A stretch of DNA of 38,925 nt from Betaproteobacteria bacterium (GTDB taxonomy: Bacteria; Pseudomonadota; Gammaproteobacteria; Burkholderiales; Casimicrobiaceae), in assembly GCA_018971195.1 (NCBI GenBank), contig JAGXBK010000009.1, positions 1 through 38,925 of the forward strand, in the 5' to 3' direction. The notes under the pieces are model-generated. The model worked only from the letters and a program-made list of their open reading frames with translations. It was not told the DNA's origin and did no database searches. Of the stretch, positions 19,094 through 38,549 are shown piece after piece. Position numbers and translations under genes: made by a program. Within the stretch, counting starts at the first letter, position 1. The number at the start of each line of letters is the position of its first letter.

Positions 19094-19167
19094 CTTGCGG
19101 GGCGGCCCTGACCAGGCTCCGCGCGACGACAATTCGCTCCGTTCCCCGCTGCGTGCGGCGCGTGCTA

Positions 19168-19965: not shown

Positions 19966-20832
19966 TCAGGCTGCAATGAGGCCGAGCTCGGCGGCCGCAT
20001 CGCGCAGCGCCGGGAGGAAGGACCGCTGCATTTCGGCGACGGAGACGCGCGACGCCTGCGTACCGATGTTGATTGCCGCAACGACGCGCGACCGGGAATC
20101 CTTCACCGGAACCGCGATCGACCGTAATCCGATCTCGAGCTCCTGATCGACCAGCGCGTAGCCGACGTCGCGGACTCCGGCGAGCACCTCGGCGAGGCGT
20201 TCGCGGGAGACGATCGTGCGCCCGGTGTGCGGCGCCAGCTTGACGCGGCGCAGGTAGGACGCGAGATCGTCGGGCGCGAGGCCCGCGAGCAGCACGCGAC
20301 CCATCGACGTGCAGTGAGCGGGCAGACGGCTTCCGACGCCGAGGTCGATCGACAGCAGCCGCTTGCCCGACGCCGACCTCGCCACGTAGAGGATCTCGTC
20401 GCTGTCCATGATGGCGAGCGAACAGGATTCGTAAAGCGCGGCGCTCACGCGATCGAGGACCGGCTGCGCGGCCATGACCAGAGGCGTCGAGGACAGGTAG
20501 GCGTGGCCCAGCGACAGGATCTGGGGACGCAGCGCGAACGTCCTTTCGTCCTCCGCGGCGACATAGCCGAGCTTCTCCAGCGTGTAGAGACAGCGCCGCA
20601 CCGCGGCCCGCGGGATGCCCGTTCGCAGGCTGAGCTGCGCGATGGAGAGTCCGCGCTGTTGCTGGGAGAACCCGCGGACGACCGCGAGCCCCCGCGCGAG
20701 CGACGTCATGAAATCCGGGTCCCCTGCGTAGGCGGCGATCTGGTCCGCGGTCCAGGTATCGGCCGGCTCCGTGGCCGCAGGCTTTCGCGAAGTCGTGTTC
20801 GGGCTGCGCAAGTTGGCTCGCGTCGGTTGCAT
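19966..20832 (-). CDS. IclR family regulator, PcaR/PcaU/PobR type
   Basis: 288 residues from the ATG at 20832; a GTG at 20868 is an alternative but lies inside the inverted repeat described separately. An N-terminal winged helix-turn-helix covers about 42-105 (SLARGLAVVRGF, LSIAQLSLRTGIPRAAVRRCLYTLEKLGY), and the effector-binding domain follows (about 120-285), with SCSLAIMDSDEILYVAR, LPAHCTSMGRVLLAGL and VAAINIGTQ. This is the form typical of regulators of protocatechuate and p-hydroxybenzoate catabolism (PcaR, PcaU, PobR). Its position, divergent from the first catabolic unit and near a PcaR-like operator, suggests that it controls the pca/qui genes with an aromatic or beta-ketoadipate-type effector; the effector itself is inference. 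Confidence 0.9.
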   Translation of the reverse strand: MQPTRANLRSPNTTSRKPAATEPADTWTADQIAAYAGDPDFMTSLARGLAVVRGFSQQQRGLSIAQLSLRTGIPRAAVRRCLYTLEKLGYVAAEDERTFALRPQILSLGHAYLSSTPLVMAAQPVLDRVSAALYESCSLAIMDSDEILYVARSASGKRLLSIDLGVGSRLPAHCTSMGRVLLAGLAPDDLASYLRRVKLAPHTGRTIVSRERLAEVLAGVRDVGYALVDQELEIGLRSIAVPVKDSRSRVVAAINIGTQASRVSVAEMQRSFLPALRDAAAELGLIAA

Positions 20833-20854
20833 CTCGTGGCGGACACGAAGTGTG

Positions 20855-20882
20855 CGATTATCGCCCACATTTTCGATAATCG
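20855..20882. promoter_or_regulatory. Perfect inverted repeat, probable IclR/PcaR-type operator
   Basis: CGATTATCG (20855-20863) and CGATAATCG (20874-20882) are perfect complements separated by 10 bp, with 19 bp between centres, about two helical turns. Read outwards, each arm resembles the PcaR box of Pseudomonas putida as I recall it (GTTCGATAATCGCAC): the minus-strand arm reads GGGCGATAATCGCAC. It lies between the divergent IclR gene and the QuiC-like gene, next to a -35 candidate. Confidence 0.7.
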
Positions 20883-20885
20883 CCG

Positions 20886-20914
20886 TTGACGATCGAGATA
20901 TTATGTACTAACTT
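20886..20914 (+). promoter_or_regulatory. Candidate sigma-70 promoter for the first catabolic unit
   Basis: TTGACG (20886-20891), a 17-bp spacer, then TAACTT (20909-20914). The surrounding 40 bp are much more AT-rich than the rest of the window. The -35 begins 4 bp after the inverted repeat, so a regulator bound there would contact RNA polymerase. The -10 is a poor match, so this is tentative. Confidence 0.45.
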
Positions 20915-21020
20915 GTTCGTTAATAGACAAAACCCGTTCGATGCCACGCTTTGGGGCGTATCGTTGTGATCCCTTTCGCGCGGCCGCAGGACAACGTCCA
21001 CCCGAAGGCGCGTTGTAACG

Positions 21021-21857
21021 ATGGACATGCATCGATTCGCAATCGACACCGTCACCCTGGCGGGACCGCTGGAGGACAAGCTCGCCGCCACGCGCGACGC
21101 GGGTTTCGCGGGCGTCGAGATCTGGGCGAAGGACCTGGTGTCGCACCCCGGCGGCGTCAAGGGTGCGGTCGCCGCGATCCGCGAAAGCAGGCTGCGCGTC
21201 ACCAGCTTCCAGTTGCTTCGCGACTACGAAGGCCTCGAGGCACACCTGCACACGTACAAGATCGACATCGCCAAGTCCATGCTCGATCTTATGGATGCAA
21301 TCGGCGCGCCCATGCTGGTGGTGGCGTCGACGACGTCTCCGTATGCGTCGGGAGACATGGACAAGACTGTTGCGGACCTGCGGGCACTGGCGACGCTGGC
21401 GACCCCGCGGGAGGTCCGCGTCGCGTTCGGTGCCCCGGCGTGGGCGCGGTGGATCAACGAATATCCGGTGGTGTGGGAGGTGGTACGGCGCGCCGATTGC
21501 TCGAATCTCGGAGTGCTCATCAACACGTTCCACCTGCTCGCGCGTGGCACGCCGCTGGACGCGCTCGATGCGATCCCGGGCGACAAGATCTTCCTGGTCC
21601 AGCTCGCCGATTACCTCGGGGATCTGCGCGACATCACCGAGACCGCCGATCACCGGCGGTCGTTCCCGAACGAAAGCGCGCACCGGGAGACGATCGCCGC
21701 GATCATCCGCAAGATGCACCGCGCGGGTTACGCCGGAGATTACGTGTTCGAGGTCTTCAACGACGAGTATCTGCATCTCGCGCCGGCGTCGATCCTTGCG
21801 CGGGCGCGCAGGGCGGCCGAATGGCTGCTGGCCGAGACCTCCCGGACGCAGCAATGA
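21021..21857 (+). CDS. QuiC-like TIM-barrel protein lacking two metal ligands
   Basis: 278 residues of the xylose-isomerase-like TIM-barrel superfamily, aligning without gaps around the active site to the N-terminal domain of the full quiC product in this window. Dehydroshikimate dehydratases bind a divalent metal through Glu, Asp, Gln and Glu. Here the first is Gly137 (VAFGAPAW instead of GYEALAW) and the second is Asn168 (LINTFH instead of ILDSFH); Gln194 (VQLAD) and Glu244 (FEVFND) remain. It lacks the C-terminal VOC domain. It may be a pseudoenzyme, a partner or an enzyme of altered chemistry. First gene after the putative operator, followed at 81 bp by the shikimate-dehydrogenase gene. 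Confidence 0.85.
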   Translation: MDMHRFAIDTVTLAGPLEDKLAATRDAGFAGVEIWAKDLVSHPGGVKGAVAAIRESRLRVTSFQLLRDYEGLEAHLHTYKIDIAKSMLDLMDAIGAPMLVVASTTSPYASGDMDKTVADLRALATLATPREVRVAFGAPAWARWINEYPVVWEVVRRADCSNLGVLINTFHLLARGTPLDALDAIPGDKIFLVQLADYLGDLRDITETADHRRSFPNESAHRETIAAIIRKMHRAGYAGDYVFEVFNDEYLHLAPASILARARRAAEWLLAETSRTQQ

Positions 21858-21938: not shown

Positions 21939-22781
21939 ATGGTCGAAGCTAAGAAGTATGGATTGGCGGGCGTCATGGGCTGGCCGGTCGGGCATTCGCG
22001 CTCACCGATGCTGCACGGGTATTGGCTGCAGAAGTACAGTCTGCCCGGTGCCTACGTGCTGCTCCCCGTGCAGCCGGAGCGGCTTCCCGCCGCCCTGAAG
22101 GGATTGGCCGCACTGGGCTTCGCCGGATGCAACGTCACGATTCCTCACAAGGTAGCGGCAATGGAGCTCGTCGACCGGGTCGACCCGCTCGCGCGCAGGA
22201 TCGGCGCGATCAACACGGTCGTCGTCGAAGGCGACGGTACGCTCACTGGCTACAACAACGACGGCTACGGCTATGTGCAGAGCCTGCGTGACACGCAGCC
22301 CGACTGGCGCGCCGATGCCGGGCCGGCGCTGGTGCTGGGCGCGGGAGGCGCCGCGCGCGCCATCGTCGCGAGCCTCGTCGATGCAGGGGCGCGCGACCTG
22401 CGGATCTGCAACCGGACACCGGCACGCGCCGAGGCGATCGCAAAGGCGATCGGGGGTCCGATATCGGTGGTGCCCTGGGAGCGACGGAATGCGGCGATCG
22501 CCGACGTCGCGCTGCTCGTCAACACGACCAGCCAGGGCATGTCCGGGCAGCCTCCGCTGGACCTCGACCTCGCAGCCCTGTCGCGGAATGCGCTGGTGTC
22601 GGATGCAATCTACATCCCGCTCGAGACACCGCTGCTCGCTGCGGCGCGGGCACGCGGCAACCGGACGGTCAACGGGCTGGGCATGCTGCTGAACCAGGCG
22701 CGACCGGCATTCAACGCGTGGTTCGGCGTCATGCCCGAGATCACTTCCGAGCTGCGCCGGATGATCGAAGCGACCGTCTGA
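21939..22781 (+). CDS. aroE: Shikimate (or quinate/shikimate) dehydrogenase homologue
   Basis: 280 residues. Shikimate dehydrogenases interconvert shikimate and 3-dehydroshikimate with NADP(H). All hallmarks are present: HSRSP at 19-23 (substrate serines), NVTIPHK with catalytic Lys71, YNNDGYG with catalytic Asp108, the nucleotide loop GAGGAA at 134-139, NRTPAR at 158-163, and NGLGMLLNQARPAF near the C-terminus. The NRTxxR motif is the form associated with NADP preference in AroE. The setting inside a catabolic cluster suggests oxidation of shikimate to 3-dehydroshikimate, rather than the biosynthetic direction, so it is probably an additional copy to the housekeeping AroE. AAGG precedes the ATG. 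The next gene follows after 52 bp. Confidence 0.9.
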   Translation: MVEAKKYGLAGVMGWPVGHSRSPMLHGYWLQKYSLPGAYVLLPVQPERLPAALKGLAALGFAGCNVTIPHKVAAMELVDRVDPLARRIGAINTVVVEGDGTLTGYNNDGYGYVQSLRDTQPDWRADAGPALVLGAGGAARAIVASLVDAGARDLRICNRTPARAEAIAKAIGGPISVVPWERRNAAIADVALLVNTTSQGMSGQPPLDLDLAALSRNALVSDAIYIPLETPLLAAARARGNRTVNGLGMLLNQARPAFNAWFGVMPEITSELRRMIEATV

Positions 22782-22833: not shown

Positions 22834-23601
22834 ATGATGATGCCGCTCTTTTCGCTCGCCGGCCGGGTTGCGCTGATCACGGGGTCGTCTCGCGGACTCG
22901 GCCTCGCGATGGCCGAAGGACTGGCCGAGGCAGGCGCGACCGTCGTCCTGAACGGCCGCGACCCGGCCACGCTCGAGGCGCGCGCGCGGGAACTCGCCAC
23001 CCGTGGGCTGGCGGCGACGACCGCCCCATTCGATGTCGTCGATGATGCGGCGGCCCGCACCGGGGTCGATGCCGTCGTCGCACGGCACGGCAGGCTCGAC
23101 ATCCTGGTTGCCAATGCCGGGATCCATCACTCGCGGCCATTGCCCGACTGGGAACTCGCGGACTGGCGCCGGGTGATGAATGCCAACCTCGACGCCTGCT
23201 TCGTTCTCGCACAACGCGCCGCGCTGCCGATGATGCGCCAGCGTCACGGACGCATCCTGTTCACGACCTCGCTTACCGGCATCCTCGGGCGCCCGACGAT
23301 CCACGCCTACTCCGCGTCGAAAGCGGGGCTCGCCGGTCTTGCGCGCTCGCTTGCCGCCGAGCTGGGGGAGCACGGGATCACCTGCAACGCCATCGCGCCG
23401 GGCTATTTCGAGACCGACTTGAGCGCCGGCTTGCGCAAGGACGCGGCGTTCGTCGAGCGGATCAATGCGCGCGTCCCTCTGCGGCGCTGGGGCAAGCCCC
23501 GCGACCTCGCGGGCATCGCCGTGTTCCTCGCCTCCGACGCGGCCGCCTATGTCAGCGGCCAGCAGATCGTCGTCGACGGCGGCATGGGAAGCGTGCTGTG
23601 A
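22834..23601 (+). CDS. Short-chain dehydrogenase/reductase (SDR)
   Basis: 255 residues of the classical SDR family. The cofactor motif is TGSSRGLG at 16-23, NAG at 94-96, and the catalytic residues are Ser146 (TTSLTG), Tyr159 and Lys163 (YSASK). The C-terminus GQQIVVDGGM is standard. It resembles gluconate 5-dehydrogenase-type SDRs, but the substrate is not predictable. Its place after the shikimate dehydrogenase gene suggests oxidation of an alicyclic alcohol that enters the same route. The start is one of three consecutive ATG-type codons (ATGATGATG), so it could be one or two residues shorter or longer. It is the last gene of this plus-strand unit and converges with the GlcG-like gene, 68 bp away. 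Confidence 0.9.
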   Translation: MMMPLFSLAGRVALITGSSRGLGLAMAEGLAEAGATVVLNGRDPATLEARARELATRGLAATTAPFDVVDDAAARTGVDAVVARHGRLDILVANAGIHHSRPLPDWELADWRRVMNANLDACFVLAQRAALPMMRQRHGRILFTTSLTGILGRPTIHAYSASKAGLAGLARSLAAELGEHGITCNAIAPGYFETDLSAGLRKDAAFVERINARVPLRRWGKPRDLAGIAVFLASDAAAYVSGQQIVVDGGMGSVL

Positions 23602-24301: not shown

Positions 24302-25444
24302 ATGAAACGATTTGCAGGATGGATAGGCGCGATGGTGCTCGGCGTCGCCGCGACCGCGGCTGCGCAGAACGGCCCGGTACCGATCGTCGGGCTGGTCGAA
24401 CTGTCGGGCCCCGGTGCGGTATCCGGAACCAACTTCAATGATGGCGTCAGGATGGCAGTGGAGGAGATCAACGCCAAAGGCGGGATCCTCGGCCGCAAGA
24501 TCGACTACACGTACAACGACACGCAATCCAATCCCGGCGTGGCCAAGGCGCTCGCCCAGAAGGCGGTCGACCAGAACGCGTACGTGGTGATGGGGCCGGT
24601 GTTCTCGGGCTCGATCTTCGTCAGCATGGACGTGACGCGGAAAGCGGAAATCACCAACTTCACCGGTGGCGAGGCGGCGAACATCACCCAGCAAGGCAAT
24701 CCTTACATCTTCCGCACGTCGTTCACGCAGGCCAACGCAATGCCGCGGGTGGCGCGCTACATGAAGAACGCGCTCAAGCTGAAGTCCGTCGACATCATCT
24801 GGGTCAACAACGACTTCGGCAAGGGCGGCCACGACGAGTTCCTCAAGGCGATCAAGGCCGACGGGATCAAGCTCGGTGCCGACGTTTCCACGGACCAGGG
24901 GCAGGTCGACTTCTCGGGCGCCGTGCTGAAGGTCAAGCAGTCCGGCTCCGACGGAGTGTTCGTCTACGTGAACGAGGAGGAGTCGGCGAGGGCCCTGCGT
25001 GAGCTCGCGAAGCAGGGCTACAACAAGCCGCGCATCGGAGAGACGACGCTCACCGGCCAGAAGGTGATCGAGCTCGCCGGGAGTGCCGCCGACGGCGCGA
25101 TCGCCCACGTCGGCCTGAGCCCCGACGCCCCGATTCCCGCGGTCCGCGCGTTCGCCGAGAGGTTCCAGAAGGAATTCAAGTACAAGCCCGACCACAACGG
25201 CATCAAGGGCTACACGGCGATGTATATCGTGAAGGCGATGACCGAGAAGATCGGCAAGTTCGACACCAAGGCGCTGGCCGCCGCGCTGCACGGCGCGAAG
25301 ATCCTGGTCAAGGATCATCCTGGCGTGCTGATGGACGTCTCGTTCGACAAGAACGGCGACATCGACCGCGAGAGCTTCATGACCAAGGTCGAGAACGGCA
25401 AGCAGGTCGTGTTCGAGACGCTGCCGCCGCTGCATCCGTTCTGA
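24302..25444 (+). CDS. ABC transporter substrate-binding protein (LivK type)
   Basis: 380 residues. Periplasmic binding protein of the branched-chain amino acid type (type I fold, Peripla_BP_6), which captures the ligand for the importer encoded by the next four genes. A signal peptide covers about 1-21 (cleavage near TAAAQ). GLVELSGPGAVSGTNFNDGV and EINAKGGILGRKI near the start are typical. This class also serves aromatic and hydroaromatic acids, and the position between shikimate-type and pca genes suggests such a ligand; that is inference. GGAGG lies 7 bp before the ATG. A strong hairpin separates it from the permease genes, a common way of raising binding-protein output. Confidence 0.93.
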   Translation: MKRFAGWIGAMVLGVAATAAAQNGPVPIVGLVELSGPGAVSGTNFNDGVRMAVEEINAKGGILGRKIDYTYNDTQSNPGVAKALAQKAVDQNAYVVMGPVFSGSIFVSMDVTRKAEITNFTGGEAANITQQGNPYIFRTSFTQANAMPRVARYMKNALKLKSVDIIWVNNDFGKGGHDEFLKAIKADGIKLGADVSTDQGQVDFSGAVLKVKQSGSDGVFVYVNEEESARALRELAKQGYNKPRIGETTLTGQKVIELAGSAADGAIAHVGLSPDAPIPAVRAFAERFQKEFKYKPDHNGIKGYTAMYIVKAMTEKIGKFDTKALAAALHGAKILVKDHPGVLMDVSFDKNGDIDRESFMTKVENGKQVVFETLPPLHPF

Positions 25445-25459
25445 TCGGGCCGCACTGGC

Positions 25460-25490
25460 GGCGCCTTGCGCGCGACGCGCGCAGGGCGCC
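25460..25490 (+). promoter_or_regulatory. Strong stem-loop between binding-protein and permease genes
   Basis: Two 15-nt arms (25460-25474 and 25476-25490) are complementary except at one position, which can form a G-U pair. No T-run follows. Such hairpins after a binding-protein gene usually protect the upstream mRNA and reduce read-through to the permease genes. Confidence 0.65.
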
Positions 25491-25541
25491 GCGGCTGCGG
25501 AGGGTCCAAGCCGGCCGCGGGCCCACTCCGGAGGTCAAGCC

Positions 25542-26417
25542 ATGGTCGATCTGATCCAGCTCATCGTGTCGGGTACCGCGACCGGCGCCATCTACGCGCT
25601 GGCGGCGCTCGGCTTCACGCTGCTGTGGCAGGCATCGGGAACCATCAACTTCGCCCAGGGCGAGTTCGTGATGCTCCCTGCGTTCACGATGCTGATCTGC
25701 ACGACGCGCGGCGTGCCGCTGTGGCTCGCCTTCCTGGTGGCTTGCGTCGTCTCGGCGATCCTTCTCGGCATCGGTTTCAAGCGCATTGTCGTCGACCCCC
25801 TGATCAGACACGGCGTGATCCCGCTGGTGATCGCGACCCTGGGCCTCTCGATCGGGCTGAAGCAGCTGGTCAAGGCCAGCTACGCGGCCGAAGCGCAGCC
25901 TTTCCCGAGCGTGTTCCCCGCGGGCCAGTTCCCACTCTTCGGCACCCACGTCTCCTATTCCGACGTCGGGACACTCCTGATCGCGGGTCTGATCGTCATC
26001 AGCCTGCAGCTGTTCCTGAAGCGCACCGTCACCGGGCGTGCGATGCAGGCCTGCGCCCAGAACATGGACGCTGCCAAGGTGCTCGGCATCAACGTGAAGA
26101 CGATGGTGCTCTACGTATTCATCATCAACGCCGTGCTGGCCGCCGTCGCCTCGCTGCTGATCTCGCCCACCTACCTGGCCAAGTTCGACATGGGCGATTC
26201 GATCGGGCAGAAGGCCTTCTTCGCCGCCATTATCGGTGGCTTCAACCAGACCAGCGGGGCGCTGCTGGGCGGGGTGCTGATCGGGGTGCTCGAGAACCTG
26301 ATCGGCTTCTATGTCTCGCCTGCCTACAAGGAGGGCGTGGCCCTCGTGCTGTTCATGGTGGTGATCCTGTTCCGCCCCGAGGGTCTGCTCGGCAAGGCAG
26401 AGGAGCGCAAGGTATGA
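25542..26417 (+). CDS. Branched-chain-type ABC transporter permease (LivH type)
   Basis: 291 residues, an inner-membrane permease of the LivH family with about eight hydrophobic segments. The N-terminal ATGAIYALAALGFTLLWQ, the FAQGEFVMLPAFT segment, and GRAMQACAQNMDAAKVLGIN (cytoplasmic loop contacting the ATPase) are characteristic. It also has IIGGFNQTSGALLGG and the C-terminal LVLFMVVILFRPEGL. GGAGG precedes the ATG. Its TGA overlaps the ATG of the next permease by 4 bp. Functions with the adjacent LivM-type permease as a heterodimer. Confidence 0.94.
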   Translation: MVDLIQLIVSGTATGAIYALAALGFTLLWQASGTINFAQGEFVMLPAFTMLICTTRGVPLWLAFLVACVVSAILLGIGFKRIVVDPLIRHGVIPLVIATLGLSIGLKQLVKASYAAEAQPFPSVFPAGQFPLFGTHVSYSDVGTLLIAGLIVISLQLFLKRTVTGRAMQACAQNMDAAKVLGINVKTMVLYVFIINAVLAAVASLLISPTYLAKFDMGDSIGQKAFFAAIIGGFNQTSGALLGGVLIGVLENLIGFYVSPAYKEGVALVLFMVVILFRPEGLLGKAEERKV

Positions 26418-27352
26418 ACGCGAAGACCGGCAAGCTGGCGCTGGTTGTCGGGATCGCCGCGTTCGCGATCCTCCCGCTGTTCCTCAAGGGCTACGGCGTC
26501 TACCTCTGTGCGCTGTTCTGCGTGTACCTGATGGCGACGCTCGGCCTGAACCTGACGGTCGGCTACGCGGGCCAGATGTCGCTCGGGCAGGCCGCGTTCT
26601 TCGGCATCGGCGCGTACCACGCCGCCATCCTGCTCAAGCTCGGCTGGCCCTTCTTCCTGGTGCTCCCGATCGCCGCGGTCGCCTGCTTCCTCGTGGGTCT
26701 GCTGCTCGGCTTCCCCGCGCTGCGGGTGCAGCACCACTACCTCGCGTTCGCGACGCTGGGCTTCAACATCCTCGTGTTCCTGATCATGCGCAACGAGGCG
26801 ACGATCACCGGGGGGCCCCTCGGGATCTCGGGCATCCCGCGGCCATCGCTGTTCGGGATTTCGCTGGACGCGGATCTCCGGTACTTCTGGTTCACGCTGT
26901 TCTTCACCGTGGTCCTGGCGGCCATCCTCTGGTGGCTGCTGCGATCGCCCTGGGGCCGGGCGTTCGCGGCGCTGCGCGACAACCCGATCCGCGCCGAGAG
27001 CCTCGGCATCAACATCACTGCCTACACGCTGTTCGCTTTCGCGATTGGCGCCGCGTGCGCTGGCGTAGCCGGAGTGTTCTACGCGTCGCTGCTGCAGTTC
27101 ATCGAGCCGTCGTCCTTCCAGTTCTCGTATTCGTTGATGATGCTGCTGGCGGTGATCGTCGGTGGGTCCGGGCGGTTCTTCGGACCGGTGCTGGGCACGG
27201 TGATCATCGTCCTGCTGCCGGAATGGCTGCGCTTCATGCAGAACTGGTACCTCGCGGTCTTCGGATTCGCGATCGTCGCGTTGATGATCTTCCTGCCCGG
27301 AGGGCTGCTGTCGCTTCCCGAGCGGCTCGGGTGGAAGGGGGCGTCGAAATGA
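26414..27352 (+). CDS. Branched-chain-type ABC transporter permease (LivM type)
   Basis: 312 residues, the second inner-membrane permease. Family blocks: LNLTVGYAGQMSLGQAAFFGIGAY (from about residue 45), the FPALRVQHHYLAFATLGF stretch, and FAALRDNPIRAESLGIN, the loop that contacts the ATPase. It closes with ERLGWKGASK. Start and stop overlap the neighbouring genes by 4 bp each (ATGA), a sign of tight translational coupling in this importer operon. Confidence 0.94.
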   Translation: MNAKTGKLALVVGIAAFAILPLFLKGYGVYLCALFCVYLMATLGLNLTVGYAGQMSLGQAAFFGIGAYHAAILLKLGWPFFLVLPIAAVACFLVGLLLGFPALRVQHHYLAFATLGFNILVFLIMRNEATITGGPLGISGIPRPSLFGISLDADLRYFWFTLFFTVVLAAILWWLLRSPWGRAFAALRDNPIRAESLGINITAYTLFAFAIGAACAGVAGVFYASLLQFIEPSSFQFSYSLMMLLAVIVGGSGRFFGPVLGTVIIVLLPEWLRFMQNWYLAVFGFAIVALMIFLPGGLLSLPERLGWKGASK

Positions 27353-28101
27353 CGACCACGCCCAGCTTCCTCGAGGTCAAGGATGTCCGCAAGGCCTACG
27401 GCGCGATCAAGGCCGTCGACGGCGTCAGCTTCTCGGTCGGCCCCGGCGAGATCGTCGGTGTCATCGGCCCGAACGGATCGGGCAAGACGACGCTGTTCAA
27501 CAGCATCCTCGGGCAGATCAAGCCGACCTCGGGCGGCGTCGAGTTCTGCGGCGAGGACATTACCGGAATGTCGCCGCTGGAGCTGGCGCGGCGCGGCGTC
27601 GGCCGCACGTTCCAGACGCTGCAGGTGTTCACGCATCTTTCGGTGCGCGACAACCTGATCGCGGCGGCACAGGAATTCAAGTCCACGATGCCGGCCCGAC
27701 TGTTCGCTGCGCCCGACGCGGGGCTCGGGCACCACGCCGACGAGATGATCGAGATGTTCCGCCTCAAGCATGTCGCGCACCTGAAGGCCGGCACGCTGTC
27801 CTACGGACAGCAGAAGCTGATCGACATCGCGATGGCGTTCATGCCCGCGCCGCGGCTCGTCCTGCTGGACGAGCCCTGCGCGGGCGTCAATCCGAGCCTC
27901 GTCGACCAGTTGCGAGAGCTGCTGTGCGAGCTCAACCGGACGCAGGGCGGAAGCTTCGTCGTCATCGAGCACAACATGGATTTCATCATGAAGCTCTGTC
28001 CGCACGTGATCTGCATGGTCGAAGGCAAAGTGCTGGCCGAGGGCCCGCCTGCCGAAGTGCAGGCCAACCGGCATGTGCTCGAGGCCTATCTTGGAAACTG
28101 A
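27349..28101 (+). CDS. ABC transporter ATP-binding protein (LivG type)
   Basis: 250 residues. Walker A is GPNGSGKTT at 40-48, the signature motif is LSYGQQ at 150-155, Walker B is VLLDEP at 171-176, and the switch histidine is His208 (VIEHNMDF). The helical insertion with RTFQTLQVFTHLSVRDNL and the C-terminal ANRHVLEAYLGN are LivG features. One of two ATPases that power the importer. It overlaps the LivM-type gene by 4 bp. Confidence 0.94.
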   Translation: MTTTPSFLEVKDVRKAYGAIKAVDGVSFSVGPGEIVGVIGPNGSGKTTLFNSILGQIKPTSGGVEFCGEDITGMSPLELARRGVGRTFQTLQVFTHLSVRDNLIAAAQEFKSTMPARLFAAPDAGLGHHADEMIEMFRLKHVAHLKAGTLSYGQQKLIDIAMAFMPAPRLVLLDEPCAGVNPSLVDQLRELLCELNRTQGGSFVVIEHNMDFIMKLCPHVICMVEGKVLAEGPPAEVQANRHVLEAYLGN

Positions 28102-28149
28102 GCGCGAAACCGAGTGGGTGGTCGGACGGGAAACCGGGAGCTGATCGAC

Positions 28150-28890
28150 ATGGCGAACGAGAAGATCATCGAATTCGACAAGGTCGTTGCCGGCTATTCA
28201 CCCAGCCTGACGATCCTCAATGAAACGACGCTCGACGCGCGCAAGGGCGAGATCACGCTGCTGATCGGCCCCAACGGCGCCGGCAAGTCGACGGTGCTGA
28301 AGACGCTGTTCGGTATGCTCGTACCGCGCTCGGGTGAGGTCCGCTTCGAGGGCCGGCGCGTCAACGGCAAATCGCAGCGCGAGCTCCTTGCCCAGGGCAT
28401 TGCCTTCGTGCCGCAGGGCCGCAATCTCTTCGGTTCGCTGTCGGTGCGACACAACCTCGAGCTCGGCGGCATCACGCTGCCGCGCGGGGACCTGCCGGGG
28501 CGTATCGAGGAGGTGTTGACGCGGTTTCCCAGGATCCGCGAGCGCATCGACAACCAGGCCTCGACGATGTCCGGCGGCGAGCAGAAGCAGCTCGAGGTCG
28601 GCCGCGCGCTGCTGCTGCGCCCCCGGGTGCTGCTGATCGACGAGCCGTCGATCGGGCTTTCGCCGAAGCTGGTCCAGGAAGTGATGACGCTGCTGCGCCA
28701 GCTCGCGGACGCCGGCACGACGGTGCTGATGGTCGAGCAGAACGTCCGCACCGCGCTCAAGTACTCGAACCGCGCCCTGGTGCTGGAGATGGGGAGGCTC
28801 GCCCTCGACCGACCGGCATCGGAGGTGCTGAACGACCCCGACCTCAATCGCCTGTTTCTCGGTGGCCACGCCAGGCCCGCGGCGGCCTGA
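28150..28890 (+). CDS. ABC transporter ATP-binding protein (LivF type)
   Basis: 246 residues. Walker A GPNGAGKST at 40-48, IAFVPQGRNLFGSLSV (Q-loop region) at about 84-99, signature SGGEQ at 141-145, Walker B LLIDEP at 161-166. The ATG at 28150 is used because GGGAG lies upstream and the N-terminus then aligns with LivF proteins; an in-frame start at 28114 is possible. It is the second ATPase and closes the importer gene set. A gap of 137 bp, with no promoter recognised, leads to the next catabolic gene. Confidence 0.94.
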   Translation: MANEKIIEFDKVVAGYSPSLTILNETTLDARKGEITLLIGPNGAGKSTVLKTLFGMLVPRSGEVRFEGRRVNGKSQRELLAQGIAFVPQGRNLFGSLSVRHNLELGGITLPRGDLPGRIEEVLTRFPRIRERIDNQASTMSGGEQKQLEVGRALLLRPRVLLIDEPSIGLSPKLVQEVMTLLRQLADAGTTVLMVEQNVRTALKYSNRALVLEMGRLALDRPASEVLNDPDLNRLFLGGHARPAAA

Positions 28891-29027: not shown

Positions 29028-29837
29028 ATGCAACGCGCCATCGGCCTGGCCGCCTTGACGGTCCTCGAGCTCGCACCACCGGACATCGTGTCCTGCGCTT
29101 CGCAGGCGGGCTACGACTTCGTGGGCTTGCGGCTGCTGCCCGCGACGGAGGCCGAGACGCGGCATCCGATCGTCGGCGACACGCCGCTGGTTCGCGAGAC
29201 CGCGATGCGGCTCGCCGACACGGGCTTGTACGTCCTGGACATCGAGCTCTTCCGCCTTGCGCCCGACACCGACGTGCGCGACTATCGGGCCGCGCTCGAG
29301 ACAGGTGCGCGGCTCGGGGCGCGCGAAGCGCTGGTGGCCGGGAGCGATCCGGACCCTTTGCGCCTTGTCGATCGCTTCGGCGCGCTCTGTGCACTCGCCG
29401 CCGAGTTCGGCATGGGTGTGGGTCTGGAGCCGATGCCCTGGACCGACATACGCGATTACGTGCAGGGGGCGAGGATCGTCGAGGCGGTCGGTTGCGACAA
29501 CGCCGGCCTGGTGATCGACCCGATTCATTTCGATCGCGCCGGCAGCCGCCCGGACCAGATCGCATTGGCCCCCCCGCGGTGCCTGCGCTACATGCAGCTT
29601 TGCGATGCCCCCGCCGAGCGACCCGCCGACATCGAGACGGTGATCCATCAGGCGCGCGCGGAGCGGCTGATGCCGGGAGACGGGGGACTGGATCTGCGCG
29701 GCATCCTGCGCGCGGCGCCGGCGGACATACCGGTCAGCGTCGAAGTCCCGATGCGCACACTCGCGCGCTCGGTGCCCGCGGCCCGGCGGGCGCGCGAGAT
29801 CCTTGCGAAGACCCGTCGGCTGCTGGACTCACTCTGA
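29028..29837 (+). CDS. Xylose-isomerase-like TIM-barrel protein
   Basis: 269 residues, sugar phosphate isomerase/epimerase superfamily (AP endonuclease family 2 fold). The presumed metal ligands are all present with the same spacing as in the quiC product: Glu134 (GLEPMPW), Asp164 (VIDPIHFD), Gln190 (YMQLCDAP) and Glu239 (VEVPM). An active metal-dependent lyase or isomerase is therefore likely. Sequence similarity to quiC outside these residues is low, so it is not simply another dehydroshikimate dehydratase. Substrate unknown; the cluster suggests a hydroaromatic or related sugar acid. It sits between the importer and quiC in the same direction. Confidence 0.85.
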   Translation: MQRAIGLAALTVLELAPPDIVSCASQAGYDFVGLRLLPATEAETRHPIVGDTPLVRETAMRLADTGLYVLDIELFRLAPDTDVRDYRAALETGARLGAREALVAGSDPDPLRLVDRFGALCALAAEFGMGVGLEPMPWTDIRDYVQGARIVEAVGCDNAGLVIDPIHFDRAGSRPDQIALAPPRCLRYMQLCDAPAERPADIETVIHQARAERLMPGDGGLDLRGILRAAPADIPVSVEVPMRTLARSVPAARRAREILAKTRRLLDSL

Positions 29838-29880: not shown

Positions 29881-30057
29881 ATGCAGACAATGCCGGCCGT
29901 CAATGGCTCCAACCTGAAGCTGCCCGGCATGCGCGAGCCGTTTCGCCGCCTCGCGCACCTGTCGCTGTCGGCAACCGGCGTCATGGCGGGATGCGGCGTC
30001 GCCGGATACGGGTCGGGAATCGCCCGCCCGGTGCGAATCCCGGACGGGCGGGCCTGA
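29881..30057 (+). CDS. Possible small ORF immediately before quiC
   Basis: 58 codons from ATG 29881 to TGA 30057, ending 4 bp before the quiC start. GAGAAG lies 7 bp upstream. Nearly all third codon positions are G or C, as in true genes here, which favours coding. The product is basic with a short Gly/Ala/Cys stretch (VMAGCGVAGYG); no family recognised. The last third overlaps a hairpin (30022-30053). It could be a leader peptide or a chance ORF in GC-rich DNA. Confidence 0.35.
   Translation: MQTMPAVNGSNLKLPGMREPFRRLAHLSLSATGVMAGCGVAGYGSGIARPVRIPDGRA
30022..30053 (+). promoter_or_regulatory. Hairpin just upstream of quiC
   Basis: Perfect 9-bp stem GCCCGCCCG / CGGGCGGGC with a 14-nt loop, ending 8 bp before the quiC ATG, so it overlaps the region where the ribosome binding site should be. 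It may modulate quiC translation or act as a weak terminator. Confidence 0.45.
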
Positions 30058-30061
30058 GCTC

Positions 30062-31987
30062 ATGCGCAAGTGCATCGCGACGGTGTCGGTTTCAGGCACG
30101 CTGGGCGACAAGCTCGACGCCATCGCGGCTGCGCGCTTCGATGCAATCGAGGTGTTCGAGAACGACCTGATGTATTTCCGGGGCTCGCCGCGCGATGTCG
30201 CCAGGATGGCAGCGGACCGGGGCCTGGGCATCGACTTGTACCAGCCGTTCCGCGAGTTCGAGGGCGCCGGAGACGAGCAGTTCAAGCGCAATCTCGACCG
30301 CGCCGAGCGCAAGTTCGACGTGATGGAGGCGCTCGGCGCGCCGATGCTGCTGGTCTGCTCGAACGTGTCGCCGCTCGCGATCGACGACGACGCGCGCGCC
30401 GCCGCCCAGTTGCACGAGCTCGCCGAGCGGGCGGCGCGGCGCAACCTGCGCATCGGCTACGAGGCGCTCGCCTGGGGCGCGCACGTCAACCGCTACGGGC
30501 ACTCGTGGAAGATCGTCCGCGAGGCCGACCATCCGCACCTGGGCGTGATCCTCGACAGCTTCCACATCCTGTCGGTGGGCGACGATCCGGCGGCCATTGC
30601 GCAGATCCCCGGCGACCGGATCTTCTTCCTGCAGATGGCCGATGCGCCGCGGCTTGCGATGGACGTGCTGCAGTGGAGCCGGCACTACCGGAATTTCCCC
30701 GGGCAGGGACAGCTCGACCTGCCGCGCTTCTTGGAGCATGTGCTGGTCGCCGGCTACACCGGATCGCTGTCGCTCGAGATCTTCAACGACGTGTTCCGCG
30801 AGGCGCCCAACCGTTCGACGGCCATCGACGCGATGCGCTCGCTGCAGTGGCTCGAGGAGCAGACGCGGCTGCGCCTGCTCGACGCCGCATCGGACATTCC
30901 CCATCCCGCCGACGTCCGTGCCAGGACCGTGCGCCGTGTCGAGCTTCTCGACCTGCCGGTCGCGCCGGTGCTGACCGGGGTCGCTTTCCTCGAGTTCGCC
31001 GTCGACGAGGCGGCCGAGTGGCTGCTCGCCAATGTGCTCGAGACGCTGGGCTTCCATCGCGCCGGCAGGCACCGGTCCAAGAACGTCACGCTGTACCGGC
31101 AGGGATCGATCAACCTGATTCTCAACGCCGAACCGGCGTCGGTCGCGCGCGAATACTTCGCCGAGCATGGCGCTTCGGTCTGCGCAGTCGGCCTCACGAC
31201 CGACGACGCGGTGCGGGCGCAGAGCCGGGCGATCGCGCTGCACTGCCCGCGCTTCGACAGCCGGCTCGGGCCCAACGAGCTGCGGGTTCCGGCCATCCGC
31301 GCGCCCAACGACAGCGTCGTCTACTTCGTGCCCGCCGAGCTCGGCTCGGGGGCGCTCTTCGAGAGCGACTTCGACCTGCGCGACGAAGCGGCCCCCCGTG
31401 CAGCCGGCGCCGGGCTGACCCGCATCGACCACATCGCCACCGGCCTGCCGGTCGAGGAGCTCGATACCTGGATCCTGTTCTACCGCGCAGTCCTCGGCAT
31501 GGTGCCGGGCGAGAGCCTCGAGCTCTCCGATCCGTTCGGGCTGATCCGCAGCAGCGGCGTCGCGAGCGGCAACCGCAGCGTGCGCGCGGTGCTGAACGTG
31601 TCGCAGAGCCAGAGCACCGTCACCGCGAAGACCGTCTCGCTCGCCGGCGGGGCGAGCATCCACCACGTCGCCTTCGCGTCCTCCGACATGTTCGAGACGA
31701 TGGCCGCGCTGGTCGCCAAGGGTGCGAAGTTCGTCATGGTCTCGGCCAACTACTACGACGATCTCGTCGCGCGTTTTGCGCTGCCCGAGGCGCAGGTGGC
31801 GAGGATGCGGGAGTTCGGCGTGCTGTACGAGCGCACGGGCGATGGCGAGTATTTCCACGCCTACACCGAGCGTTTCGCCGATCGCTTCTTCTTCGAGATC
31901 GTGCAGCGCGTCGGCGGCTACGACGGCTACGGCGCGCTCAATGCGCCTGCCCGCATGGCATCGCAGCTTCAGCCGCCAGCGTCGTGA
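30062..31987 (+). CDS. quiC: 3-dehydroshikimate dehydratase, two-domain (QuiC)
   Basis: 641 residues. Converts 3-dehydroshikimate to protocatechuate, linking hydroaromatic substrates to the beta-ketoadipate pathway. The N-terminal TIM barrel (about 1-280) has the metal ligands Glu134 (GYEALAW), Asp165 (ILDSFH), Gln191 (FFLQMAD) and Glu239 (SLEIFND), the set known for bacterial QuiC enzymes. The C-terminal half (about 300-640) is a double VOC domain like 4-hydroxyphenylpyruvate dioxygenase, retaining a metal triad at His457 (IDHIATGL), His534/535 (SIHHVAF) and Glu612 (FFEIVQR). This fusion is known in QuiC1-type enzymes; the role of the second domain is not settled. Start matches the normal family N-terminus. 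The pca genes follow after 40 bp. Confidence 0.93.
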   Translation: MRKCIATVSVSGTLGDKLDAIAAARFDAIEVFENDLMYFRGSPRDVARMAADRGLGIDLYQPFREFEGAGDEQFKRNLDRAERKFDVMEALGAPMLLVCSNVSPLAIDDDARAAAQLHELAERAARRNLRIGYEALAWGAHVNRYGHSWKIVREADHPHLGVILDSFHILSVGDDPAAIAQIPGDRIFFLQMADAPRLAMDVLQWSRHYRNFPGQGQLDLPRFLEHVLVAGYTGSLSLEIFNDVFREAPNRSTAIDAMRSLQWLEEQTRLRLLDAASDIPHPADVRARTVRRVELLDLPVAPVLTGVAFLEFAVDEAAEWLLANVLETLGFHRAGRHRSKNVTLYRQGSINLILNAEPASVAREYFAEHGASVCAVGLTTDDAVRAQSRAIALHCPRFDSRLGPNELRVPAIRAPNDSVVYFVPAELGSGALFESDFDLRDEAAPRAAGAGLTRIDHIATGLPVEELDTWILFYRAVLGMVPGESLELSDPFGLIRSSGVASGNRSVRAVLNVSQSQSTVTAKTVSLAGGASIHHVAFASSDMFETMAALVAKGAKFVMVSANYYDDLVARFALPEAQVARMREFGVLYERTGDGEYFHAYTERFADRFFFEIVQRVGGYDGYGALNAPARMASQLQPPAS

Positions 31988-31995
31988 ACCTTTCC

Positions 31996-32010
31996 CGCAC
32001 CTGCGGTGCG
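31996..32010 (+). promoter_or_regulatory. Small hairpin between quiC and pcaI
   Basis: CGCACC / GGTGCG perfect 6-bp stem with a 3-nt loop in the 40-bp gap before pcaI. It may influence mRNA processing between the two genes; no terminator features. Confidence 0.3.
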
Positions 32011-32027
32011 ACAACTTCTGGAAACCA

Positions 32028-32726
32028 ATGATCGACAAGACCATGGCCACCGTTGCCGAAGCGATCGCCGACATCAAGGACGGCGCAACCGTCATGATCG
32101 GCGGCTTCGGTTCCGCGGGAATGCCTTCGGAGCTCATCGACGCGCTGATCGCGCAGGGCGCGCGCGAGCTCACGATCGTCAACAACAATGCGGGCAATGG
32201 CGACGCCGGTCTCGCGCTGCTGCTCAAGGCGAGGCGCGTGCGCAAGATCATCTGCTCGTTCCCGCGCCAGACCGATTCCTGGCATTTCGACACCCTCTAC
32301 CGGGCGGGTGAGATCGAGCTCGAGCTGGTGCCGCAGGGCAATCTGGCCGAGCGCATTCGCGCGGCAGGTGCGGGCATCGGCGCGTTCTACACGCCGACCG
32401 GATTCGGAACGCTGCTCGCGCAGGGCAAGGAGACCCGGGAAATCGACGGCCGCCACTACGTCCTCGAGTACCCGATACGCGCCGACTTTGCGCTGGTCAA
32501 GGCGCTTGCCGGAGACCGCTGGGGGAATCTCGTCTACCGCAAGACTGCGCGCAACTTCGGCCCGATCATGGCGACTGCCGCCCGTTGTACGATCGCGCAG
32601 GTACAGCGGATCGTCCCGCTCGGAGCGCTCGACCCCGAGGCCGTCGTGACGCCGGGCATTTTCGTCCATCGCGTCGTCTGCGTGCCCGCCGGGGCGACGG
32701 GAGCGACGCACGGAGCCGCTGCGTGA
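32028..32726 (+). CDS. pcaI: 3-oxoadipate CoA-transferase, subunit A
   Basis: 232 residues. Alpha subunit of the enzyme moving CoA from succinyl-CoA to beta-ketoadipate. The glycine-rich GGFGSAGMP at 25-33 is the CoA-transferase family I alpha signature. NNNAGNGDAGLALLL, ICSFPRQTDSWHFD and EYPIRADFALVKA are typical PcaI blocks. The start at ATG 32028 follows GGAAA. It is 22 bp from pcaJ. With the other pca genes in order this assignment is secure. Confidence 0.95.
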   Translation: MIDKTMATVAEAIADIKDGATVMIGGFGSAGMPSELIDALIAQGARELTIVNNNAGNGDAGLALLLKARRVRKIICSFPRQTDSWHFDTLYRAGEIELELVPQGNLAERIRAAGAGIGAFYTPTGFGTLLAQGKETREIDGRHYVLEYPIRADFALVKALAGDRWGNLVYRKTARNFGPIMATAARCTIAQVQRIVPLGALDPEAVVTPGIFVHRVVCVPAGATGATHGAAA

Positions 32727-32748
32727 ACGAGACCACCAGGACACGACG

Positions 32749-33384
32749 ATGAACCGCTATACCCGCGACCAGATGGCCGCCCGCGTCGCCCGGGACATCC
32801 GGGACGGTGCCTATGTCAATCTCGGAATCGGCTTGCCGACGCTGGTCGCCAACCACCTTCCGAAGGATCGCGAGATCATCCTGCACACCGAGAATGGACT
32901 GCTCGGCATGGGGCCGGCGCCCGCGCCGGGCGCGGAGGATCCCGACCTGATCAACGCCGGCAAGCAGCCGGTCACCGAGCTGCCGGGCGCCTCGTTCTTC
33001 CATCACGCGGATTCGTTCGCGATGATGCGCGGCGGCCACCTCGATTGCTGCGTGCTGGGCGCGTTCCAGGTCTCCGTCGGCGGGGATCTCGCGAACTGGC
33101 ACACTGGTGCGCCGGAAGCCATTCCCGCGGTCGGCGGCGCGATGGACCTCGCTCTGGGCGCGAAAAGCGTCTATGTGATGATGGAGCACCTGACCAAGGG
33201 CGGCGAAAGCAAGATCGTCACGCAGTGCACGTATCCGGTCACGGCGCTGCACTGCGTCAGCCGCATCTACACCGATCTGGCGGTGCTCGAAGTGACGTCA
33301 CAGGGCCTGCGGGCCGTCGACATCGTCGACGGGCTGTCGCTGCCGGAGCTGGCGCGCCTGTCGGGTGTGCCGATCAACGGCTAG
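32749..33384 (+). CDS. pcaJ: 3-oxoadipate CoA-transferase, subunit B
   Basis: 211 residues. Beta subunit, carrying the catalytic glutamate Glu48 in LHTENGLLGMGP, and the glycine motif NLGIGLP at 24-30. LDCCVLGAFQV and HLTKGGESKIV are further family features. Forms a heterotetramer with the pcaI product. The next gene starts 10 bp downstream. Confidence 0.95.
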   Translation: MNRYTRDQMAARVARDIRDGAYVNLGIGLPTLVANHLPKDREIILHTENGLLGMGPAPAPGAEDPDLINAGKQPVTELPGASFFHHADSFAMMRGGHLDCCVLGAFQVSVGGDLANWHTGAPEAIPAVGGAMDLALGAKSVYVMMEHLTKGGESKIVTQCTYPVTALHCVSRIYTDLAVLEVTSQGLRAVDIVDGLSLPELARLSGVPING

Positions 33385-33394
33385 GATGGAGATC

Positions 33395-35997
<2,603 letters not shown>

Positions 35998-36018
35998 CGC
36001 CAAGCGGATACCTCGCCA

Positions 36019-37350
36019 ATGCCCGACACGCTGTTCACCACCGACGCGATGCGCATGGTCTTCTCGGACCGGGCGCGCATCCAGCGCATGCTGGATTTCG
36101 AGGCTGCGCTAGCGCAGGCGGAAGCCGCGGTCGGCGTGATCCCGGAGGGCGCGGCCGATGCGATCGCTGCCTGCTGCCACGCGGACAGGTTCGACGCCGA
36201 GGCACTTGCGGCGGCCGCCCGGAGTGCAGGAAACCTCGCAATCCCGCTGGTCGCTGCCCTGACGAGCAATGTCGCCGCGGCCGATCCGGTCGCGCGCGGG
36301 TATGTCCACTGGGGGGCGACGAGCCAGGACGTCATCGACACCGCGCTGGTGCTGCAGCTGCGCGATGCGCTGGCATTGATCGACGCCGACGTCGAGCGAC
36401 TGGCAGCGGCGCTCGCGGTCCAGGCGCGCCACCACGCGACGACGGTCCTCGCCGGGCGCACCTGGCTGCAGCAGGCGATCCCGGTCACGCTGGGCGTCAA
36501 GCTTGCCGGATTCGTCAGCGCGCTGGACCGACACCGGCTGCGGCTCTCCGAGGCACGTGGTCGGGCACTCGTCCTGCAGTTCGGCGGCGCGGTGGGAACG
36601 CTGGCGTCGCTGGGCGATCGCGGAATCGCGGTCGGCGAGGCGCTGGCCCTGCGGCTGGCGCTGCCGCTGCCCGACCTGCCGTGGCACACCCAGCGCGACC
36701 GCGTCTGCGAAATCGCCGCGGTGCTGGGCCTGCTCGCGGCCACGCTCGGCAAGCTTGCCCGCGACCTGGCACTGCTCGCACAGACCGAGGTCGCCGAGAT
36801 GTTCGAGCCCGCGGCGCCGGGACGCGGCGGCTCGTCGACCATGCCGCACAAGCGCAATCCGGTCGGCGCGTCGGTCGCGATCGCCGCGGCGCTGCGCAGT
36901 CCGGGATTGGTGGCGACCATGCTGAGCGCCGCTGCGCAGGAACACGAGCGCGGGCTGGGCAACTGGCCGGCCGAATGGGAGACGCTGCCGGAGATCGCGC
37001 TGCTGGTTGCGGGCGCGCTCGCCGCGATGGCCGACGTCGCGCCGGGACTCGATGTCGATGCGGAGCGGATGCGGGCGAACCTCGGGCTTACCCAGGGCCA
37101 GATCTTCGCCGAAGCGGTGCAGATGGCGCTCGCACCGGCGCTCGGCCGCGACCACGCTCACGCGCTGGTCGCCGACGCTTGCAGGCGCGCCGCGAAGGAG
37201 CGTGTCCACCTGCGCGACGTGCTGCGTGCGGTCCCCGAGGTTTCGTCGGCGCTGGACGCGAGTGCCCTCGACCGCTTGTTCGATCCCGCGGACTACCTCG
37301 GCGAAAGCGGCCGCTACATCGAGCGCGCGCTCGCTGCGCACCGGTCCTGA
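36019..37350 (+). CDS. pcaB: 3-carboxy-cis,cis-muconate cycloisomerase
   Basis: 443 residues of the fumarase/aspartase superfamily. Converts 3-carboxy-cis,cis-muconate to 4-carboxymuconolactone. The superfamily signature GSSTMPHKRNP occurs at 271-281; other conserved parts are GATSQDVIDTALVLQLRD near 100 and GRTWLQQAIPVTLG near 150. It begins with DTLFTTDAMRMVFSDRARIQ, the usual cycloisomerase N-terminus. It lies 21 bp after pcaG and 15 bp before pcaD. Confidence 0.94.
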   Translation: MPDTLFTTDAMRMVFSDRARIQRMLDFEAALAQAEAAVGVIPEGAADAIAACCHADRFDAEALAAAARSAGNLAIPLVAALTSNVAAADPVARGYVHWGATSQDVIDTALVLQLRDALALIDADVERLAAALAVQARHHATTVLAGRTWLQQAIPVTLGVKLAGFVSALDRHRLRLSEARGRALVLQFGGAVGTLASLGDRGIAVGEALALRLALPLPDLPWHTQRDRVCEIAAVLGLLAATLGKLARDLALLAQTEVAEMFEPAAPGRGGSSTMPHKRNPVGASVAIAAALRSPGLVATMLSAAAQEHERGLGNWPAEWETLPEIALLVAGALAAMADVAPGLDVDAERMRANLGLTQGQIFAEAVQMALAPALGRDHAHALVADACRRAAKERVHLRDVLRAVPEVSSALDASALDRLFDPADYLGESGRYIERALAAHRS

Positions 37351-37365
37351 AGGAGCGACGCGAAC

Positions 37366-38154
37366 ATGCCCTTCGCCAAAGCCGGCGGCATCCGCCTGCA
37401 CTACCGGATCGACGGTGATGCCGCCGCGCCGCCACTCGTCCTTTCCAATTCGCTCGGGGCCACGCTCGAGATGTGGGAGCCGCAGATGGCGCCGCTCGCC
37501 GCGCGCTTTCGCGTCATCCGCTACGACACCCGGGGCCACGGCGATTCCGAAGTGACGCCGGGACCCTACACGATCGCGATGCTGGGAGCCGACGTGGCGG
37601 CGCTGCTCGACGCGCTCGCCATCCCGCGCGCGCATTTCTGCGGCCTGTCGATGGGTGGGATGACGGGCATGTGGCTCGGCGTGAACGCGCCGGAGCGCGT
37701 CGACCGGCTGGTGCTCGCCAACACCGCCGCGAAGATCGGCACCGCCGACATGTGGAATGCGCGCATCGACGCGATCCGCAAGGGCGGCATGGCCTCCGTC
37801 GCGCCGGGCGTGCTGGCGCGCTGGTTCACGCCGGCGCTGCTCCTGCATCCGACGCCGATGGTTACCGGACTGCGGGCGAGCTTCGAGCGCACGTCGGCGG
37901 ACGGCTATGTCGCCTGCTGCGCGGCGGTCCGCGACACGGACCAGCGCGACGCGCTGTCGCGCATCCGGGTTCCCACGCTGGTCATCGCGGGCAGCGTGGA
38001 TCAGTCGACGCCGCCGGACGACGGGCGCTACGTCGCCGAGCACATTCCCGGAGCACGCTATGTCGAGCTGCAGGCCCCGCACCTGTCGAACGTGGAGGCG
38101 GCGTCCGCGTTCACGCAGGCGATTCTGCAATTCCTGACCGCAAGCAAGGAGTGA
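37366..38154 (+). CDS. pcaD: 3-oxoadipate enol-lactonase
   Basis: 262 residues, alpha/beta-hydrolase. Opens 3-oxoadipate enol-lactone to beta-ketoadipate. Catalytic triad: Ser95 (CGLSMGGMTG), Asp212 (AGSVDQSTPP) and His239 (QAPHLSNVE). The oxyanion region LSNSLGATLEMWEPQ and RYDTRGHGDSE are typical of PcaD. GGAGCGACGCGAAC precedes the ATG. PcaD is separate from PcaC here, unlike the fused PcaL of some bacteria. Confidence 0.95.
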   Translation: MPFAKAGGIRLHYRIDGDAAAPPLVLSNSLGATLEMWEPQMAPLAARFRVIRYDTRGHGDSEVTPGPYTIAMLGADVAALLDALAIPRAHFCGLSMGGMTGMWLGVNAPERVDRLVLANTAAKIGTADMWNARIDAIRKGGMASVAPGVLARWFTPALLLHPTPMVTGLRASFERTSADGYVACCAAVRDTDQRDALSRIRVPTLVIAGSVDQSTPPDDGRYVAEHIPGARYVELQAPHLSNVEAASAFTQAILQFLTASKE

Positions 38155-38159
38155 CGACG

Positions 38160-38549
38160 ATGGATGAAACAGAACGCTACGACCGCGGCATGGTCGTGCG
38201 GCGCGCCGTGCTGGGCGATGCCCACGTCGACCGGACGCTGGCCAAGCGCAACGAGTTCAACGCCGATTTCCAGGAGCTGATCACCCGCTACGCGTGGGGC
38301 GAGATCTGGTCGCGGCCCGAGCTCTCGAGGCACACGCGCAGCCTGCTGACCCTCGCGATGATGGTCGCGCTGAACCGCGGCGACGAGTTGAGGCTGCACC
38401 TGCGAGGAGCGTTCAACAACGGCGTGACCCAGGACGAGATCAAGGAAGTGCTGCTGCACTGCGCGATCTACGCGGGCGTTCCCGCCGCCAATTCCGCGTA
38501 CCACATGGCGGAGGAGGTTTTCGCACAGATGCATCCGCCGCCGGAGTAG
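38160..38549 (+). CDS. pcaC: 4-carboxymuconolactone decarboxylase
   Basis: 129 residues of the CMD/AhpD family. Decarboxylates 4-carboxymuconolactone to 3-oxoadipate enol-lactone. The sequence has the compact PcaC form: VRRAVLGDAHVDRTLAKRN, ITRYAWGEIWSRPEL and the C-terminal EVLLHCAIYAGVPAANSAYH. It starts 5 bp after pcaD and is the last gene of the operon. A strong hairpin follows 51 bp later. Confidence 0.95.
   Translation: MDETERYDRGMVVRRAVLGDAHVDRTLAKRNEFNADFQELITRYAWGEIWSRPELSRHTRSLLTLAMMVALNRGDELRLHLRGAFNNGVTQDEIKEVLLHCAIYAGVPAANSAYHMAEEVFAQMHPPPE

Follow-up and report, generated by a model that had tools for sequence, protein, structure and literature searches.

A QuiC-like TIM-barrel protein that lacks two metal ligands is maintained by selection in a quinate-degradation cluster of Burkholderiales

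Within a quinate-degradation cluster of the window, by which we mean the whole 38,925-nucleotide stretch of DNA from an uncultured betaproteobacterium that is analysed here, lies a gene for a single-domain relative of the 3-dehydroshikimate dehydratase QuiC in which Gly137 and Asn168 stand in place of two metal ligands (Table 1). Judged from its sequence and from its relatives, this protein, here called the Gly/Asn protein, most likely serves a new purpose and no longer the reaction of its ancestor. In Burkholderiales, a protein annotated as "QuiC-like" cannot be assumed from that label alone to have dehydroshikimate dehydratase activity.

The gene is an intact frame encoding 278 residues, and the product is a xylose-isomerase-like TIM barrel that matches Pfam AP_endonuc_2 (PF01261) with 84.2 bits against a cut-off of 31.1, so that profile and fold both place it in this superfamily. 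The equivalog profile for two-domain QuiC, NF042435, is matched over positions 3-255 of 635 with 164.4 bits; this falls below the cut-off of 1200 bits, which a protein of single-domain length could hardly reach, and the C-terminal HPPD-like domain of two-domain QuiC is absent. Pairwise alignment with the window's own QuiC pairs Glu134 with Gly137, Asp165 with Asn168, Gln191 with Gln194 and Glu239 with Glu244, exactly the two losses and two retentions that the preliminary description had read by eye; its claim of an active site aligned without gaps holds through the Gln but not beyond, as a two-residue indel precedes the final Glu. A profile of the five orthologues compared with the solved QuiC1 structure (5HMQ, the first match) gave the identical ligand pairing, and misalignment at the ligand positions is ruled out by the agreement of the pairwise, multiple and profile-to-5HMQ alignments. 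Where TIM-barrel dehydratases carry Glu, Asp, Gln/His and Glu, this protein carries Gly137, Asn168, Gln194 and Glu244. At the other active-site positions, taken from the residue list in the available part of PMC7442255, the dehydratase residues Arg64, His168 and Arg210 are present as Arg67, His171 and Arg213, of which the first is Lys in one orthologue, while Leu97, Leu136 and Ser206 are replaced by Val100, Pro139 and Ala209, the last of which is also found in most single-domain relatives. AlphaFold, run on an input alignment of 37 sequences, predicts an intact fold (mean pLDDT 92.2, pTM 0.91), and the best PDB matches of the predicted model are six 5HMQ chains with TM scores of 0.90-0.91 by query length.

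Table 1. Features of the window discussed in the text
Feature	Coordinates	Strand	Basis or remarks
PcaR/PcaU/PobR-type IclR regulator, divergent	19966..20868	-	TIGR02431, 309.4 bits (cut-off 284.75)
Operator/promoter stretch	20852..20922		CGATTATCG and CGATAATCG arms, TTGAC box, TAAC-N6-GTTA palindrome
QuiC-like single-domain TIM barrel	21021..21857	+	G137 and N168 for two metal ligands; Q194, E244, H171, R67, R213 kept
AroE-type shikimate dehydrogenase	21939..22781	+	NF001312, 356.6 bits (cut-off 295)
SDR oxidoreductase	22834..23601	+	profile scan and synteny
LivKHMGF-type ABC transporter genes	24302..28890	+	LivK by scan, other names by reading
TIM2, second short TIM barrel, AP_endonuc_2	29028..29837	+	ligand set looks complete by eye
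Canonical two-domain QuiC (3-dehydroshikimate dehydratase), 641 aa	30062..31987	+	E134, D165, Q191, E239 all present
beta-Ketoadipate genes pcaI, J, F, H, G, B, D, C	31977..38549	+	names by reading

Homologues were collected from a scan of species genomes (59 loci), from the window's own family (matches at 1e-30 in 42/64 genomes, in two of these through QuiC only), from an order-level sample (23/399 genomes at 1e-60) and from a phylum-level sample (70/398 genomes at 1e-40, with residues read in the 30 matches that had loci). The merged set held 140 distinct rows, and three poorly aligned ones with odd frame ends (L069, L120, L113), which read directly as Glu/Asp/His/Gln/Glu, were dropped to leave 137 in the tree. 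At the five positions examined, the 108 single-domain rows comprise 84 with Glu/Asp/His/Gln/Glu, 13 with Lys/Asp/Asp/Gln/Asp, 5 with Gly/Asn/His/Gln/Glu and 6 singletons. The pair Gly137/Asn168 occurs in all five distinct orthologues, which come from five genomes of one genus, the window included. Among the 103 other single-domain rows, position 168 is always Asp and never Asn, position 137 carries 87 Glu, 14 Lys, one Gly (L094) and one Val, position 194 is Gln in 102, and position 244 carries 86 Glu, 14 Asp, two Gln and one Leu; the canonical ligand set is kept in 29/29 two-domain QuiC rows, with neither Gly137 nor Asn168 in any of them. The loci examined from the 399 order-level and 398 phylum-level genomes yielded no Gly/Asn protein from any other genus. 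The 318 matches in plasmid records all fell below 60% identity.

The ten pairwise comparisons among the orthologues gave dN/dS values of 0.09-0.18 (0.14 and 0.19 for two QuiC pairs), and none of the five has an internal stop; the gene is under purifying selection. That the contigs are MAG-derived and that a nearby aroQ looks like a relic both in the window and in one of the other genomes (G063) could point to a decaying duplicate or an assembly artefact, but the same changes recur in five separate genomes in frames with these dN/dS values and without internal stops, which makes this reading highly improbable; sequencing error or a pseudogene is ruled out by the shared Gly/Asn pair, the open frames and the same ratios. 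The earlier view that the fold has been conserved by selection while the ligands were lost is thus borne out. Constraint may be concentrated at the strand ends: when these are taken as the three residues before to six after each strand C-terminal end, within the aligned stretch 36-270, 55/66 such positions are invariant among the five orthologues compared with 102/169 elsewhere (p 0.0007). This is only suggestive of an extra constraint in the clade, because the comparison set of five QuiC proteins from the family is not significant in the same test (42/66 vs 87/169, p 0.11). Residues fixed in the clade and rare among relatives include Pro139, Trp144, Asp210, Arg212, Asn217 and Ser219, which sit on the loop of Arg213 and beside the positions of the former ligands; Trp144 and Arg212 also occur in L094 and L102.

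The preliminary description had compared the protein with two-domain QuiC, whereas by sequence its nearest kin is a single-domain lineage that resembles a split QuiC. In two trees built without the trait columns the five-row Gly/Asn clade has supports of 100 and 98/100 and lies inside the single-domain group, which is split from two-domain QuiC at a support of 100; by common ancestry the protein is therefore a member of the single-domain lineage and not of two-domain QuiC. To QuiC1/QsuB (5HMQ) it is similar in its TIM barrel, in having the equivalents of Arg64, His168, Gln191, Arg210 and Glu239 and in its place in the same kind of catabolic cluster, but it lacks the HPPD domain and the Glu134 and Asp165 ligands and is 34% identical over 275 columns. 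Single-domain relatives from Comamonadaceae, Rhodoferax (L062) and others are 44-52% identical, fall in one tree group with it and are likewise clustered with a Liv transporter, some of them also with aroQ; unlike the Gly/Asn protein, they keep Glu/Asp/Gln/Glu and a separate HPPD-domain gene. In Rhodoferax the order is Liv transporter, HPPD-domain gene, TIM barrel, PcaB-like gene and AroQ. Directly upstream, 78/84 of the Glu/Asp/His/Gln/Glu rows have a gene that matches the C-terminal region of QuiC, four of the six exceptions having less than 1 kb of upstream sequence, and so do 13/13 of the Lys rows; the three upstream genes that were scanned all match the HPPD N-terminal domain (Glyoxalase_5). 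Directly upstream of the Gly/Asn rows such a gene was found in 0/5, with at least 1.5 kb read in four and a single base in one, and none was found within the 997 and 500 upstream bases of L094 and L102, respectively. The Glu/Asp lineage thus looks like a split QuiC, and its members would presumably be active dehydratases. L094, which reads Gly/Asp/Asp, is the sister of the Gly/Asn clade in the best tree (support 88, and 63/74), a placement that these values do not firmly establish.

A second departure from the canonical site is seen in a clade of 13 rows with Glu134 changed to Lys, His168 to Asp and Glu239 to Asp, and with Glu in place of Gln64 and Cys102. Like the Gly/Asn clade, this Lys-type clade consists of single-domain relatives with an altered metal site; it keeps Asp168 and the upstream HPPD-domain gene and has a separate origin, since a common origin of the two clades is rejected (p-AU 0.0006). 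One member is encoded in the window's own genome (L092:8647-9450, equal to G000:C4:20640-21446), near genes for citryl-CoA lyase, a thiamine-diphosphate enzyme, another TIM barrel and a type I dehydroquinate dehydratase. The Glu/Asp relatives, the Gly/Asp protein of L094, the Gly/Asn clade and the independent Lys clade form a natural series, which would represent a metal-dependent TIM-barrel dehydratase family losing its metal site while under selection in catabolic clusters, and which makes the question of how a metalloenzyme turns into a metal-free enzyme or binder directly testable. A broader proposal, that this single-domain offshoot gave up or substituted its metal on two or more occasions, once by removal in the Gly/Asn proteins and once by a Lys-centred site with extra acids, giving metal-free enzymes for other ring acids of quinate-type catabolism, seems to us rather unlikely as a whole. 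Lone active-site changes were also seen in L124 (G212; Val137/Gln244), L132 (G406; Lys137/Leu244), L047 (Gln171/Gln244), L102 (Gln171) and L077 (Arg194), and in none of the 29 two-domain QuiC rows.

A complete two-domain QuiC is present in 3/5 genomes of the Gly/Asn clade (G000, G043, G060). In a fourth (G054) QuiC is cut by the contig start, with residues 360-641 left and followed by pcaI. In the fifth (G063, 66% complete) only QuiC residues 546-637 are found (L157:1438-1782, G063:C306), where an aroQ start of 29 residues passes directly into about 92 last residues of quiC, through either a deletion or a misassembly; the rest of this 66% complete genome showed no QuiC dehydratase domain, so the Gly/Asn protein cannot be taken as dispensable there. 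The genome that holds L094 (G027) has both QuiC domains, in two frames. Among other genomes with a single-domain copy, QuiC occurs in 1/34 of the family (G025) and 3/17 of the order, 4/51 together, and in these four the single-domain copy keeps its ligands. Fisher tests against 4/51 give 0.0002 when 5/6 are counted and 0.02 when only the three complete ones are, with related genomes in the counts; because of this relatedness, the Gly/Asn clade being one genus, the link can only be indicative. Altered single-domain copies also occur in genomes without QuiC (10/13 Lys rows, L124 and L132). The association of an altered copy with the presence of QuiC, and with it the idea that gaining QuiC freed the single-domain copy to change, is suggestive and not clean.

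The same fold is found in AsbF-type dehydratases and in sugar-phosphate isomerases/epimerases such as IolI (1i60), to which the Gly/Asn protein is 18% identical. IolI has intact metal ligands, unlike the Gly/Asn protein. The same is true of AsbF, and the available part of PMC9324987 describes Glu, Asp and Glu as the metal-coordinating residues common to AsbF, Qa-4 and QsuB, with no activity seen there without added metal. Because two of these shared ligands are lost, we are fairly confident that ordinary dehydration by the Gly/Asn protein is unlikely. The protein could in principle still be a metal-dependent dehydroshikimate dehydratase that holds its metal on Gln194, Glu244 and new or backbone ligands: the pocket arginines and histidine are the same, the Gln and the second Glu are kept, and G063 shows the QuiC remnant only. 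We consider this improbable, as each of the two missing residues binds metal in all three classes of dehydratase compared in PMC9324987, no Asp, Glu or His has been gained relative to the Glu/Asp relatives at the inspected strand-end positions except Glu33, which QuiC also has, and a complete QuiC is encoded in three of the five genomes. No metal-less relative was listed in the literature searched.

Our leading explanation, to which we give a little less than an even chance, is that the protein is an ex-dehydratase paralogue that has given up metal-dependent dehydration and most likely still binds a ring acid, either for metal-free chemistry or for binding only. It would have arisen from the split lineage, in which the TIM-barrel gene is preceded by a separate HPPD-domain gene, and would have lost both this partner and the Glu and Asp ligands, with the supply of protocatechuate left to the full two-domain QuiC that is mostly present beside it. 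The retained barrel, the presumed ring-acid contacts Arg67, His171 and Arg213, and the one remaining acid, Glu244, suggest that a quinate- or shikimate-type ring acid is still the ligand. Within this explanation we slightly favour metal-free acid-base chemistry by Glu244 and His171, because both are invariant across the five orthologues while nearby residues have been replaced. Against the loss of the metal site, a metal might still be bound by Gln194 and Glu244, perhaps helped by His171 or Asn168.

A pure pseudoenzyme, binding dehydroshikimate, protocatechuate or quinate without turnover and tuning QuiC, AroE, the transporter or the regulator, is a serious possibility that we hold more tentatively. 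The protein combines lost catalytic residues with purifying selection, the combination by which pseudoenzymes are recognized. Moreover, the cluster of one orthologous locus (L097) covers the steps from dehydroquinate to beta-ketoadipate, with pca names assigned by reading, so that no reaction is left over there for the Gly/Asn protein, and no missing pathway step was found for it in that locus. There is a precedent in the fungal quinate repressor, which derives from shikimate-pathway enzyme domains. Activator and repressor roles in the fungal quinate system are described in the available part of PMC12610400. A mere binder, however, need not keep both Glu244 and His171, no partner was identified, and the IclR regulator has a ligand domain of its own. 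The preliminary suggestion of a pseudoenzyme, regulator or new chemistry is thus upheld as far as ligand loss under selection goes, but the sequence cannot choose among these and gives a regulator no specific support.

The surroundings of the gene are conserved in part. An IclR gene lies on the upstream side in 4/4 orthologous loci whose contig reaches that far (the contig of L100 ends too early), and it is the direct neighbour of the TIM-barrel gene in three of them (window, L098, L097). In these three the gene is also, as first described, the first after the operator, but in L101 two short frames intervene, one of them weakly resembling NAD-binding proteins and shikimate dehydrogenase, in the second case with a score under the cut-off. 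By eye, operator-like elements are common to the four orthologous loci that include the stretch, and its arms extend into the initial codons of the IclR frame as called; the operator reading follows what we take to be the PcaR-box pattern. The TAAC-N6-GTTA palindrome, at 20909-20922 before the TIM-barrel gene, is separate from the IclR-type arms and also common to the four loci. A TetR-like gene, so named by reading, lies at 19153-19884. Shikimate dehydrogenase, said earlier to stand beside the gene, is next downstream in 3/5 orthologous loci and elsewhere is not, so aroE is not a constant partner even though Gly/Asn is conserved in all five. The SDR gene follows aroE also in L100 and is not at that place in L097 and L101, the contig of L098 ending earlier. 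The Liv transporter is downstream in 4/4 loci whose contig reaches it, and the order of the pca genes is the same in L097.

Between the transporter and quiC, TIM2 is xylose-isomerase-like and distant from both other barrels of the window; it is also present in L097, L099, L101 and several Lys-type clusters. Between TIM2 and quiC, the stretch 29881-30057 resembles, by eye, both ends of the type II dehydroquinate dehydratase AroQ with the middle missing, so that aroQ in the window looks like a relic only. Pfam DHquinase_II had no match in the window's genome, whereas 7/14 control genomes match; a type I AroD is encoded on contig C4 of the window's genome. In L099 and L097 a complete aroQ occupies the place of the relic-like stretch.
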